From an archaeon (GTDB taxonomy: Archaea > Thermoproteota > Nitrososphaeria > Nitrososphaerales > Nitrosopumilaceae), in contig JAJRWR010000018.1 of assembly GCA_024276695.1 (NCBI GenBank), positions 1-60,257 of the forward strand: a DNA stretch of 60,257 bases. Direction: 5' to 3'. The notes beneath the pieces are model-generated. The model saw nothing but the letters and a program-made list of their open reading frames with translations. It was not told where the DNA came from and made no database searches. Position 1 is the stretch's first letter, and the number at the start of each line of letters is the position of its first letter. A program made the translations under genes and the position numbers. This document shows, piece by piece, positions 36,866 through 41,007 of the stretch.

Positions 36866-37651
36866 CTATTTTGTGGTTACTTCCATACCATGTTGAGATT
36901 TTATGATATACTTGTCTCTAATTTTCACACTAATCCAATCAATGAACAAGACAGTTACCAACACTACCAACATGAAGATTGCTGCTTTTCCATACTCAAA
37001 GAATTTAATATAATTGATTATGTAAAATCCAATTCCGCCAGCACCGACCAAACCAAGAATACTGGTTTGACGAACATTGTAATCAAACATGTATAGTATT
37101 TGGCTCAACAGATGAGATGCAGATTCAGGAATCACCACATAGCGGATTAGTTGCCATTTTGAAACGCCAATAGAACTTACAGCATCCATTGGATCAGAAT
37201 CAATGGTCTCAATTGCCTCATATTGTAATTTTGCAACAAACCCAACAGTATACATTACAATTGCCAAGACTCCAGCAAAAGTTCCCAATCCAACCATGAT
37301 TACAAACAAAATTGCCCAAAGAATCGAAGGAAATGTTCTGATAGCTGCCAATAATGCACGAACAGGAGCATAGACATATTTGCTGTTTAGATTTCGTGCT
37401 GCAAACATGCTAAGAGGTAATGCGATTGCCGTACCAACAACAGTACCAATGAATGCCATTTGGATTGTTTCAAACATCGCCCAGAGTGCTGTTGGAATAT
37501 ATTTTGGTTCGACAAGAAGCATCTCTTCAACTACAATTGCAAGGTTAGGCAATCCCTCAACAAATTCTAAAGGATTTGCATCCACATTATACGATGCGAC
37601 CACTACAAGTGCCACAATGATTCCAATTACAATGTTATTTTTTGGAGTCAT
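36866..37651 (-). CDS. phnE: Phosphonate-type ABC transporter permease
   Basis: 261 residues with about six membrane helices and the PhnE permease pattern (MAFIGTVVGTAIALPLSMFA, IRTFPSILWAILFVIMVG, the EAA-like loop SSIGVSKWQLIRYVVIPES and GLVGAGGIGF). It overlaps phnC by 17 bases. The transported compound could be phosphonate, phosphite or phosphate. Confidence 0.88.
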   Translation of the reverse strand: MTPKNNIVIGIIVALVVVASYNVDANPLEFVEGLPNLAIVVEEMLLVEPKYIPTALWAMFETIQMAFIGTVVGTAIALPLSMFAARNLNSKYVYAPVRALLAAIRTFPSILWAILFVIMVGLGTFAGVLAIVMYTVGFVAKLQYEAIETIDSDPMDAVSSIGVSKWQLIRYVVIPESASHLLSQILYMFDYNVRQTSILGLVGAGGIGFYIINYIKFFEYGKAAIFMLVVLVTVLFIDWISVKIRDKYIIKSQHGMEVTTK

Positions 37652-38465
37652 CAGAATACATCTCCATTATTTCTTTAGTGTTCAAATCACCCGTTTGAAA
37701 ATCAACTATAATGTCACCTTCAACTCCAATTTCTAGAATTTTTTGGCCTTCTTTGATAACTGCCACCCTATTTGCATATTCTAATGCTAATTGGATATCA
37801 TGATGAACCATGATTGCAGTCAAATTCATTCTTTTTTGAGCATCAGCAATCAAATTCATTATCTCACGAGCGGTCACATGATCTAATTCTGAAACAATCT
37901 CATCTGCCAACAGTATGGTTGGTTTTTGCATTAGTGCTCTAGCAATAGCTACTCTACGTTTTTCACCTCCACTTAACATGTAGGCTTTTCTGTCTTCTTT
38001 TCCAGATAATCCGACAAGAGACATTATTCTTTTTGCTTCTTGAATTTCAGATTCAGGGAATTTTTTGAGTAATGATTGAATTTTGTTTAATCTAGGTAAT
38101 GCACCAATTAGAATATTTTCAATGACTGTGATGTTTTTTACCAATCCAAGACTTTGTGGGATATAACCAATAGTGTGCATCATCTTTTTGAATTTTTTAT
38201 TATTCATGTCAGGTGTAACATAATCAATTTTGATGGTACCTTTGCTTGGAATCATCATTCCATTCATTAGTTTCAGCAAGGTTGATTTTCCAGAACCTGA
38301 TTGGCCAACAATAGCATAGTTTGTTCCTCTATCGATGGAGAGATTGATTCCTTCTAGTGCAAAATTTTTGGAATCATACGAAGTCCATACATCATTCATT
38401 TGGATGATTTTATTTGTTGAGATTAATGAAAAAGAAGGGTTTAGGGTCATCTGAAGTTGTTTCAT
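37635..38465 (-). CDS. phnC: Phosphonate-type ABC transporter ATPase
   Basis: 276 residues. Walker A (VGQSGSGKSTLLKLM), signature (LSGGEKRRVAIARALM, with E in place of the usual Q), Walker B (TILLADEIVSELD) and switch His (IMVHHDIQLAL). It powers the PhnE permease. The N-terminal 18 residues before IIQMNDVW exceed the usual start. Confidence 0.9.
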   Translation of the reverse strand: MKQLQMTLNPSFSLISTNKIIQMNDVWTSYDSKNFALEGINLSIDRGTNYAIVGQSGSGKSTLLKLMNGMMIPSKGTIKIDYVTPDMNNKKFKKMMHTIGYIPQSLGLVKNITVIENILIGALPRLNKIQSLLKKFPESEIQEAKRIMSLVGLSGKEDRKAYMLSGGEKRRVAIARALMQKPTILLADEIVSELDHVTAREIMNLIADAQKRMNLTAIMVHHDIQLALEYANRVAVIKEGQKILEIGVEGDIIVDFQTGDLNTKEIMEMYSDDSKK

Positions 38466-38482
38466 TTTCAGAATCCCTTGTT

Positions 38483-39571
38483 TTATTTGCTCTTGTTGTA
38501 TTTATCAAGAATCAACTGATCAAGTCCTGTTAAAGCATCAATAAAGTCACCAAATTCACCAATATGCATAGTTGTGGTGGTTGGAACTAGAGCTTCTGCA
38601 CCATACAAGTCTCTCAAGATACGATTATTTTCATCATAATTGAGTTTGATCATTGCATCAACAAGTGCATTTCTGGTAGAGTCAGACATGTCAGAACTTA
38701 CCATGAACACATGTGACGGCACAGGTCCAATTGTAGTGACTGGTCGTAATTTTAATTGATCTTCTAATTCCAGATATTTCTGTGGAGCAATATCTGAACC
38801 AAATGCAACATCTACATTTCCATTAAGAAGTAATTGTAATGCAGCTTTGTAACCACCTGCAAAAGTATAACTTTCAAAGTTATTTGCCAATGCAGATTCT
38901 AAAGCAACAATGTCATCGCCTTCTATGGTAACATAGCCCTCAGTAACCAAAGTTCCCATAGGCCTAACAAAACCAGATGAACCAGTGATGCTAGTAAATG
39001 CTACTTTTTTGCCAACTGTATCTTCCAATGAATTAATTGAATCATTTTCAGCCAAGGTCCAAACTGTTGCTTGATAGTTTACCTTTCCTGCAACGAGTTC
39101 TGCCATTACTGCCTCTGCACCAGTTCTTTGATTGGTAATCCATGCAGGACCGGTGTCCATAAAGGCAGCATCAATATGACCAAATCTCATCCCTTCAATG
39201 ATTGTTTCATAATTTGTTGGAACCACGATCTCGACATCTACACCAAGCTCAGTTTCAAGAAAGATTTCTAATGCTTGAGCTTTTGGAGTTAGTTCATCAG
39301 CTTTTTCAACTGGAATAAATCCAATGGTAATTGTGTCAACATCTACAGGGTTAGATTCAGATGAAACATTGATGATGTTGTTTTCCAACAGATATGTGAT
39401 TCCATTTAGAAAAGTTTCATCATCCAAAGTACCATCAGCCCACCAACCAGCATTTGTTTTAATCCAATCAGGGACTAAACCCTCTGCTTGTGCCGATTCA
39501 GTTAATGGTACAGACAACACACTGATTACTGCAAAAACAGCAATCAATGCTAATGTAATTTGTCGTTTCAT
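38483..39571 (-). CDS. phnD: Phosphonate-type substrate-binding protein with extra N-terminal module
   Basis: 362 residues from the ATG at 39571 (a TTG three codons earlier is in frame). Signal peptide about 1-29. Then a 40-residue module, GLVPDWIKTNAGWWADG to LLENNIINVS, of the kind often repeated in thaumarchaeal surface proteins. Then a PhnD-like periplasmic binding fold (TITIGFIPVEKADELTPKAQ, HIDAAFMDTGPAWITNQRTG, AFTSITGSSGFVRPMGTLV). The module is probably outside the cell and may anchor the binder to the S-layer; that is inference. Confidence 0.88.
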   Translation of the reverse strand: MKRQITLALIAVFAVISVLSVPLTESAQAEGLVPDWIKTNAGWWADGTLDDETFLNGITYLLENNIINVSSESNPVDVDTITIGFIPVEKADELTPKAQALEIFLETELGVDVEIVVPTNYETIIEGMRFGHIDAAFMDTGPAWITNQRTGAEAVMAELVAGKVNYQATVWTLAENDSINSLEDTVGKKVAFTSITGSSGFVRPMGTLVTEGYVTIEGDDIVALESALANNFESYTFAGGYKAALQLLLNGNVDVAFGSDIAPQKYLELEDQLKLRPVTTIGPVPSHVFMVSSDMSDSTRNALVDAMIKLNYDENNRILRDLYGAEALVPTTTTMHIGEFGDFIDALTGLDQLILDKYNKSK

Positions 39572-39684
39572 GATTAACAAAGAATTAGGATTAGCTAAAT
39601 TATTTAAAGCAAGGCATCATTCCAAATCATCATTCCAAGTCTATAGAACAAGAACAATAGACATTTTTGATCTTAAACCAATAA

Positions 39685-40041
39685 TTAATTTGATTTAGGA
39701 TTTGCAGTGTTTGAATACAAATTCAAACTAGGCTCCAAATCATCCAATGTGATTTCGACCTTTCCAATTCTACTTCTATACAATTTTATTTTTTTGCCTT
39801 CAGGAGATATAATGAATTTATCAACCTCGGCCAATGCAAGTTCCTCTAATGTTGACAGAGTTTTGTACACTGTAGAAAGTGAAATTTTTAGTTCATCAGC
39901 AATTTGAGTGGCATCTTTTGATTCATTTTTCACTGAAAACAATACAGATCTAGTACACACATTGCTTAGAGATTCAATAATTTTTTGCGTAATATCAAAT
40001 TCAGATAATTGAATTATAGTAGGTTTTTGCAATTTTATCAC
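39685..40041 (-). CDS. Winged-helix transcription regulator
   Basis: 118 residues. The helix-turn-helix is DATQIADELKISLSTVYKTLS, and the wing is VDKFIISPEGKKIKLYRSRI. It resembles TrmB/ArsR-type regulators and its upstream neighbour along the full length, so the two are tandem duplicates. Both lie upstream of phnDCE on the same strand, so they may control the transporter. Confidence 0.8.
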   Translation of the reverse strand: MIKLQKPTIIQLSEFDITQKIIESLSNVCTRSVLFSVKNESKDATQIADELKISLSTVYKTLSTLEELALAEVDKFIISPEGKKIKLYRSRIGKVEITLDDLEPSLNLYSNTANPKSN

Positions 40042-40371
40042 TTAATTTGGGATTAACGTAAGACTAGGTTCAGGCTTTCTAATGGAGATATCAGCTTTGC
40101 TGATACGACTTCGATAAACCTTGTATTTTCTGCCCTTATCAGATAACATCCATTTTTCAACTTTGATTAATGTTAATTCTTCAAGGTCTGTTAATTTTTT
40201 ATAAACAGAACTAAGGGGAATTTTGAGTTTGTCAGAAAGTTCGGCAGCTGTATTTCCTTTTTTAATTGTGGAGAATAGAATTGCTCGAGATTCAGAATCA
40301 GCCAAAGCCTCTATAACTTTTTGAGTTGTATCGTATTTTTTTAATTGTGGAAGTGTTAATTTTCGTGACAT
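40042..40371 (-). CDS. Winged-helix transcription regulator, tandem paralogue
   Basis: 109 residues with TAAELSDKLKIPLSSVYKKL as helix-turn-helix and EKWMLSDKGRKYKVYRSRIS as wing. The stop is directly followed by the next start (40042/40041), so the two paralogues are co-translated and may form a heterodimer. No ligand domain. Confidence 0.8.
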   Translation of the reverse strand: MSRKLTLPQLKKYDTTQKVIEALADSESRAILFSTIKKGNTAAELSDKLKIPLSSVYKKLTDLEELTLIKVEKWMLSDKGRKYKVYRSRISKADISIRKPEPSLTLIPN

Positions 40372-40450
40372 GTAAATATAAAAAAATGGTTCAGGTATTT
40401 AAAACTAGGTTATTTATTCTCATTCTAGAGAGTTAGAATAATTAATTGGA

Positions 40451-40615
40451 TTGTGTGTTTTTTGTAAGATTACAAAAAAATTTCAAAAATATACCCACAC
40501 ATATGCAAATGATGAAATTCCAAGAACAGATATTATTCTAAACTCATTTACTAAATTCACAGGTACAGATATTTCATCAGATGACAAATTCATTGTAAAA
40601 AATATCAGCAACTAA
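40451..40615 (+). CDS. Possible 54-residue protein, TTG start
   Basis: The plus frame CVFCKITKKFQKYTHTYAND to ISSDDKFIVKNISN is open from a TTG at 40451. It has a CVFC pair but no clear promoter or RBS. It may be real, a remnant or chance. Confidence 0.3.
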   Translation: MCVFCKITKKFQKYTHTYANDEIPRTDIILNSFTKFTGTDISSDDKFIVKNISN

Positions 40616-40648
40616 CACGTGTTATGGACACTAGGAAAATACTAACTT

Positions 40649-40864
40649 TTAGTGACAAGGAAATCCTGCTGCATGTCTCATATCATGAGTTAATTCATGA
40701 ATGTAAAGATCAGTGAATGCTTGTTCACCATATACAGGACTGAATATGTGGCCTTGGTCAAATCCGACAACAAATAATCCTGCGACAAATACAATAGATA
40801 ATGCAAGAATTGCTAGTTTTGAAACACCAGTTTTTGAAACAGAGATTTGTCTAGATTCAGACAT
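40649..40864 (-). CDS. CbtB-type cobalt-transporter subunit
   Basis: 71 residues from the ATG at 40864 (another ATG at 40876). One membrane helix (LAILALSIVFVAGLFVVGFD), then the CbtB signature: GHIFSPVYGEQAF and the His-rich end IHELTHDMRHAAGFPCH. CbtB is proposed to take up cobalt with CbtA and is usually under B12 control. No cbtA is adjacent. Confidence 0.85.
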   Translation of the reverse strand: MSESRQISVSKTGVSKLAILALSIVFVAGLFVVGFDQGHIFSPVYGEQAFTDLYIHELTHDMRHAAGFPCH

Positions 40865-41007
40865 GAAAAATATCATTCTCTGTTTATATTAAAACTCTTG
40901 GGTGCTGTAAAAAAATCAAAGAGTCAGAATTTAGTCATGAAAATCTGTTATTATAAGATCTTACATACTGTTGTTTTTGACATATTTTTTCCAAGGAATT
41001 TTGTAAA

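Follow-up and report, generated by a model that had tools for sequence, protein, structure and literature searches.

Introduction

Ammonia-oxidizing archaea (AOA), which require iron, rank among the most common cells of the ocean. What, then, is imported by the ATP-binding cassette (ABC) transporter that is annotated in such an archaeon as the phosphonate system PhnCDE? We analysed this question on a stretch of 60,257 nucleotides (the window; contig JAJRWR010000018.1) from an assembly of 1.56 Mb and 99.5% completeness, whose closest named relatives are Nitrosopumilus sp., so that the host is a Nitrosopumilus-type archaeon. Gene calls and family scans agree with an initial annotation of the window, which had described phnE, phnC and phnD together with two winged-helix paralogues, here termed R1 and R2 (47% identity). 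Our analysis leads to a different substrate. We estimate at roughly two in three the probability that this ABC cassette imports ferric iron and not phosphonates. PhnCDE is thus probably an unrecognised iron importer of these abundant archaea, a known gene set with a probable unrecognised function. Qin et al. (2020, PMC7490402) already state that AOA phnCDE may have a different substrate or be nonfunctional.

The PhnD pocket carries the iron ligand set of transferrin

Human transferrin coordinates iron with Asp63, Tyr95, Tyr188 and His249, and its carbonate site comprises Thr120 and Arg124. In PhnD the four ligand positions are occupied by Asp139, Tyr166, Tyr241 and His287, and the carbonate-site threonine by Thr193 (Table 1; the transferrin sequence was verified against PDB 2hau and its canonical residue numbering set by script). 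Asp260 of PhnD falls near transferrin Lys206/His207 and is not the equivalent of His249. The Asp-Tyr-Tyr-His set is complete in 105 of the 110 aligned PhnDs, the exceptions being four PhnDs of other orders that lack the aspartate and one truncated protein. Tyr241 and His287 are each invariant in the 109 sequences that reach those positions.

This pocket differs from that of the annotated family. Solved members hold a phosphorus oxyanion through a hinge tyrosine, an STS loop and a histidine, together with family-specific caps (PMC5700983; PMC12718374). In PhnD the histidine of this STS-H phosphonate/phosphite pocket is replaced by Tyr241, and the loop reads TGSSG instead of STSG. The cap by which E. 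coli PhnD binds 2-aminoethylphosphonate is not kept either, as the position of its Asp205 is taken by His287 and that of Glu177 by Asp260. PtxB, E. coli PhnD and the glycerol-1-phosphate binder GpxB all have histidine at the Tyr241 position, and none has the Asp-Tyr-Tyr-His set.

PhnD is homologous to the transferrins. A profile search of the PDB with 29 PhnDs retrieved ovo-, sero- and melanotransferrins at E values of about 1e-12 to 1e-8, and hhalign matched the PhnD profile to the human transferrin N-lobe with 88% probability (27% identity over 198 columns) and to the C-lobe with 78%. In local profile alignments against both transferrin lobes the AOA PhnDs reached 91%, other archaeal PhnD-like proteins 96% and both groups together 97%. 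Control profiles gave 1.6% (E. coli/Pseudomonas PhnD plus PtxB), 58% (another small bacterial set), 3% (a relative from Rhodobacterales) and 0.3% (an NMT1-type binding protein), and shuffled or reversed transferrin at most 0.3%. A run with changed settings lowered the AOA figure to 25% and left the other archaeal group at 97%; the size of the transferrin signal therefore depends on settings. The other archaeal proteins (L262-L275, L278, L279), which are closer still to transferrin (96-97%), mostly have Tyr, Tyr and His but Ser/Gly for Asp. With the Pfam transferrin model PF00405 the PhnDs score mostly under the cut-off and exceed it in 6 of 61 genomes; a PF00405 scan of 398 genomes was lossy, found few PhnDs and was not used as evidence either way.

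An AlphaFold2 model of PhnD (mean predicted local distance difference test, pLDDT, 78.6) superimposes on the ovotransferrin N-lobe with a VIA-align Z of 24.8 over 259 residues at 2.9 A. PhnD and PtxB structures score Z 25-26 and transferrin lobes Z 23-25. As the fold matches to ArrX, PhnD, PtxB and transferrin are about equal, it is the ligand set that decides and not the fold.

Based on this set, secreted PhnD would hold Fe(III) between its lobes through Asp139, Tyr166, Tyr241 and His287, while a synergistic oxyanion, carbonate or phosphate, may sit on the loop Thr193/Ser198/Ser199, a legacy of oxyanion-binding ancestors. The iron would then be passed to PhnE and PhnC.

The twin regulators and the transporter have a common operator

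Alignment of the upstream regions reveals the element TTCTCATTCTATAGATTTAGAATGA before phnD and, inverted, before R1, with a TTTAAATA-like box after each. The operator is a 25-bp palindrome. A scan of the window with a position weight matrix (PWM) built from 28 sites returned only these two sites (Table 1); the R1 site read on the opposite strand scored 22.0, the next match 14.5 and the shuffled maximum was 12.5. A consensus search of the window with a 20-base core and two mismatches likewise gave two matches, compared with 0.14 expected by chance. A scan of 1.17 Mb of partly overlapping sequence, covering about 1.1 Mb or roughly 70% of the genome, contained no further site above 22.6. A third, weaker copy with this score lies at L343:13659-13683 and does not precede an obvious gene.

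The initial annotation had proposed that the twins regulate the transporter as a pair and had suggested looking for their operator upstream of phnD. The site is indeed there, the same palindrome precedes R1, and nothing comparable occurs in the sequence scanned, so that control of the transporter by the twins is very probable. Judging from the position of the sites, R1 and R2, which form one operon, may bind the palindrome upstream of phnD and of their own promoter, and cellular iron is probably the signal to which they respond.

An iron permease replaces the transporter in the same slot

The annotation had named conservation of the regulators apart from the transporter as contrary evidence. 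A search of relatives with R1 found them also in genomes without phnD, beside an iron permease. The layout R1-R2-[phnDCE or FTR1-HydA]-purP is seen in ten genomes belonging to four genera. Where phnDCE is missing, the slot is taken by an FTR1-type permease whose extracellular part is large, by a hydantoinase-A-like protein (HydA) and often by a PEFG-CTERM protein. FTR1 occupies the slot in G013, G015, G003, G477, G478 and G225 within the genus and in G073, G113, G063 and G105 from other genera; in G027 divergent twins stand beside an FTR1 operon. G030, G029 and G023 have an empty slot or regulators that stand apart from phnDCE. The twins of G023 are in the slot and its phnDCE lies about 25 kb off; in G024 the twins occur a second time, on a separate contig (L127, L128).

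Each of the 11 FTR1 slot loci has a site 29-44 bp ahead of the FTR1 reading frame, which in 10 of them is the best site of the locus, R1's own set aside. As the same operator precedes R1, phnD and FTR1, the regulon is local, autoregulated and indifferent to the transporter that it drives. In the relatives an FTR1 iron permease operon would thus be under the same regulators and operator.

The two systems are also anticorrelated among 167 genomes of the family that are at least 85% complete, in which we scored transferrin-type PhnD against FTR1. Among congeners, FTR1 is found in 5 of 57 genomes with phn and in 11 of 15 without (p 1.4e-6); in the whole family the corresponding figures are 5/85 and 41/80 (p 2e-11). 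On an aRF1 tree built from 30 genomes the phn label changes seven times. No match to FeoB, considered as a possible third partner, passed the cut-off in the 167 genomes, weak partial matches being present.

Two features of the FTR1 loci may be recorded here. The N-terminal part of FTR1, about 450 residues long, contains a repeated motif (FEYLEAD...DPELLYKLE.DLREELR.MI) in common with the neighbouring PEFG-CTERM surface protein (L120:3033-6875), and the hydantoinase-A-like gene follows FTR1 in nearly all loci read.

Weighing ferric iron against other substrates

Several observations weigh against an iron importer. With respect to the annotated family, PhnE exceeds the phosphonate permease equivalog cut-off, and the nearest solved relatives by sequence are PtxB (2e-23) and E. 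coli PhnD (3e-21) in the PDB profile search. With respect to transferrin, the carbonate-site Arg124 corresponds to Gly197 although Thr193 is kept, PhnD has no cysteine and hence no disulfides, it comprises one lobe compared with two, the archaeal group nearest to transferrin by profile lacks the aspartate, and by fold ArrX (Z 27.9) scores above transferrin. As the operator is local, a regulator common to FTR1 need not sense iron. The anticorrelation is not fully corrected for descent: there are three well-supported independent pairs, with FTR1 opposite where they differ, for which a sign test cannot reach 0.05. Finally, sugar phosphates are the cargo of AfuABC, a system formerly regarded as an iron importer (PMC4546632), and the low iron uptake rate of Nitrosopumilus maritimus has been read as favouring non-specific ZIP transporters (PMC9723733).

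The family membership of PhnE and PhnD (PF12974, 149.5 bits), the nearest solved relatives and the oxyanion loop, kept in its altered form, would fit an importer of phosphonate, phosphite or phosphate with a changed pocket, the substrates that the initial annotation had considered. The pocket itself argues otherwise: its histidine is a tyrosine in every sequence that reaches it, the acidic Asp139 enters, and a histidine stands for Asp205 of E. coli PhnD. The host genome has no strong phosphoenolpyruvate (PEP) mutase, its best match of 121 bits, compared with 276-305 in true carriers, probably being an isocitrate-lyase-family paralogue. A published survey of AOA genomes records no C-P (carbon-phosphorus) lyase and no known phosphonate hydrolase (PMC7490402). 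Together with the exchange of the cassette for FTR1 in one and the same slot behind one operator, this makes a phosphorus substrate unlikely, and we do not retain that part of the annotation. PEP-mutase homologues of 276-305 bits occur, among 61 genomes searched, only in G002, G006, G009, G021, G031 and G046, with a broken one in G014. The PtxB phosphite importer is marked by a Tyr208 cap and a linked ptxD; next to the cassette the conserved order of genes shows no dehydrogenase, ptxD not having been searched genome-wide.

The cargo might instead be a different metal (Mn, Co, Cu) or else a metal complex, for instance a ferric chelate. The slot is flanked by cbtAB, a proposed cobalt transporter, and a relative of PhnDCE on a Rhodobacterales plasmid, with the tyrosine and histidine but not the aspartate, has mntR and a gene for cytochrome c peroxidase as neighbours (L258:1466-6323); this relative is possibly another metal importer annotated as a phosphonate system. 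We nevertheless regard this reading as improbable for PhnCDE, since Asp-Tyr-Tyr-His is the Fe(III) set of transferrin, the exchange partner is an FTR1 permease, and cbtAB has no copy of the operator.

Import of glycerol-1-phosphate or another phosphate ester, which we considered for the TG loop common to PhnD and GpxB (PDB 9lf9), appears very improbable. Asp139 precedes this loop (T140-G141, corresponding to T111-G112 of GpxB), and the GpxB hinge tyrosine Tyr138 corresponds to Tyr166; AfuA moreover is an example of a supposed iron binder that accepts sugar phosphates (PMC4546632). We dropped this candidate because the histidine that binds the phosphate head in GpxB (His199) is replaced by Tyr241 and the overall match is weaker (2e-11 compared with 2e-23 for PtxB); in GpxB Arg223 and Thr247 serve the tail of the ligand. 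The candidate also gives no reason for the alternation with FTR1. Least credible of all is that the slot is merely a hot spot in which phnDCE and FTR1 landed independently with a regulator common by chance of position: the well-supported exchanges number only three, phnDCE of G023 lies away from its regulators and FTR1 also occurs elsewhere, but the anticorrelation extends genome-wide beyond the slot and the operator stands 29-44 bp before FTR1 in every slot locus.

An Fe(III) importer, by comparison, accounts for the ligand set, the exchange with FTR1, the common operator, the lack of phosphonate enzymes, and the situation in N. maritimus, which has no known iron-specific transporter and for which a 'hitherto uncharacterised' one has been considered (PMC9723733; PMC6776035).

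A helical module probably retains PhnD at the cell surface

Between the signal peptide and the binding domain PhnD carries a module (residues 32-70), which the initial annotation had linked to thaumarchaeal surface proteins and not to bacterial PhnD and had recommended for structure prediction and a search across surface proteins. AlphaFold2 folds the module alone into a two-helix hairpin (helices 7-17 and 23-35, mean pLDDT 84), and the host genome contains 17 copies at the N- or C-termini of secreted proteins, among them plastocyanin-like, nuclease-like and matrixin-like proteins. The module is thus real, but we rejected it as the main novelty: a thaumarchaeal module is expected in a host that is itself a Nitrosopumilus-type archaeon, it is widespread in the genome, and it is dispensable, with 80 of 110 PhnDs having it and 30 lacking it, so that the form without it, to which the annotation had pointed as contrary evidence, does exist in part of the relatives.

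A signal-peptidase-like site lies ahead of the module in 77 of the 80 PhnDs that carry it, compared with 5 of the 30 without. The module therefore appears to stand in for a membrane anchor, and its role is probably retention of PhnD at the cell surface. In most species PhnD would be cleaved from its signal peptide and retained by the module, whereas PhnDs without it would keep an uncleaved N-terminal anchor.

Gene layout

All five genes are on the minus strand of the window (Table 1). The start of phnD is the ATG at 39571, as in relatives, a TTG at 39580 being unlikely. If R2 starts at GTG 40041, the regulator genes abut as initially annotated; most relatives begin three codons later, and a small gap is equally possible. 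The order purP - phnE-C-D - R2-R1 - cbtB - response regulator - DsbA-like - aRF1 is kept in most congeners examined. In the window cbtB is orphaned (40372-40876) by the loss of cbtA, whose place in most relatives is between cbtB and R1.

Table 1. Coordinates of the cassette, its putative ligand residues and its operators in the window.
Feature	Position	Strand	Description	Evidence
phnE	36866..37651	-	ABC importer permease	TIGR01097 PhnE 258 bits (equivalog cut-off 216.7, NCBIfam); BPD_transp_1
phnC	37635..38465	-	Importer ATPase	Top model TIGR02315 ABC_phnC, 200 bits, under cut-off 266
phnD	38483..39571	-	Single-lobe substrate-binding protein	PF12974 149.5 bits; 133 bits, above TIGR01098 subfamily cut-off 112; 97 bits, below 261 of PhnD equivalog model
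His287 codon (in VPSH)	38711..38713	-	Aligned with ligand His249	
Tyr241 codon	38849..38851	-	Aligned with ligand Tyr188	
Thr193 codon	38993..38995	-	Aligned with carbonate-site Thr120	Ungapped GKKVAFTSITGSSGF / GKKSCHTGLGRSAGW
Tyr166 codon	39074..39076	-	Equivalent of ligand Tyr95; family hinge Tyr (PtxB/PhnD/GpxB)	One column off in automatic alignment
Asp139 codon	39155..39157	-	Aligned with ligand Asp63 (C-lobe Asp392)	Ungapped FMDTGP / TLDAGL
Module of PhnD (PDWIKTNAGWWADG...)	39362..39478	-	Helical hairpin, about 40 residues	17 places in genome
phnD operator TTCTTGTTCTATAGACTTGGAATGA	39630..39654	-	Upstream of TTTAAATAA box	PWM score 30.6; conserved in congeners
R2	39685..40041	-	Second winged-helix regulator	TrmB/ArsR-type helix-turn-helix matches
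R1	40042..40371	-	First winged-helix regulator	Weak matches to HTH_20, TrmB, Sta1, Lrs14
R1-R2 operator TTCTCATTCTAGAGAGTTAGAATAA	40417..40441	+	Inverted orientation	PWM score 36.8
cbtB	40649..40876	-	Neighbour in conserved slot	PF09489 40.5 bits

Significance and relation to known systems

The analysis names a candidate iron importer, with regulators and operator, for AOA, whose member N. maritimus is without a recognised iron-specific transporter. If it is correct, annotations of a 'phosphonate transporter' in AOA genomes and metagenomes report iron acquisition and not phosphorus metabolism. A prokaryotic ABC binding protein with a transferrin-type site would be relevant to the origin of transferrin. 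Given the carbonate dependence known for phytotransferrin, it would also matter for the way in which nitrification could be affected by ocean acidification. We put forward tentatively, as an idea we ourselves consider doubtful, that archaeal PhnD-like proteins, the present one included, are the prokaryotic relatives that gave rise to the iron site of eukaryotic transferrins, the ferric Asp-Tyr-Tyr-His set having existed in an archaeal ABC importer before animal and algal transferrins. In the open-licence literature we found no report linking AOA PhnD to transferrin or iron.

Among known systems, the cassette itself is that of Qin et al. (2020, PMC7490402), whose accessible part likewise allows for a non-phosphonate substrate and gives no alternative substrate, regulator or operator. 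The FTR1/EfeU permease operon of AOA has the same chromosomal slot, twin regulators and operator; it belongs to an unrelated protein family without a binding protein and would be a functional substitute if PhnCDE imports iron. PtxB, PhnD and the marine PhnD binders (PhnT family, TC 3.A.1.9) have in common with the system described here PF12974, the trio D-C-E, the PhnE equivalog, the hinge tyrosine and the anion-binding loop. The present system departs from them in the tyrosine for the STS-H histidine, the histidine for E. coli Asp205, the extra Asp139 and the lack of a known catabolic partner. GpxB (PMC12718374) shares the family, the TG loop and the hinge tyrosine, and is set apart by its His199 and a weaker overall similarity. 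The transferrin lobes (PF00405; human serotransferrin, ovotransferrin) are distinguished from PhnD by their paired lobes, cysteines and Arg124, where PhnD is a single cysteine-free lobe with Gly197, archaeal and part of an ABC importer. Both have the Type II binding-protein fold, equivalents of Asp63, Tyr95, Tyr188, His249 and Thr120, and the VPSH and GKKxxxT motifs, which are kept in PhnD.

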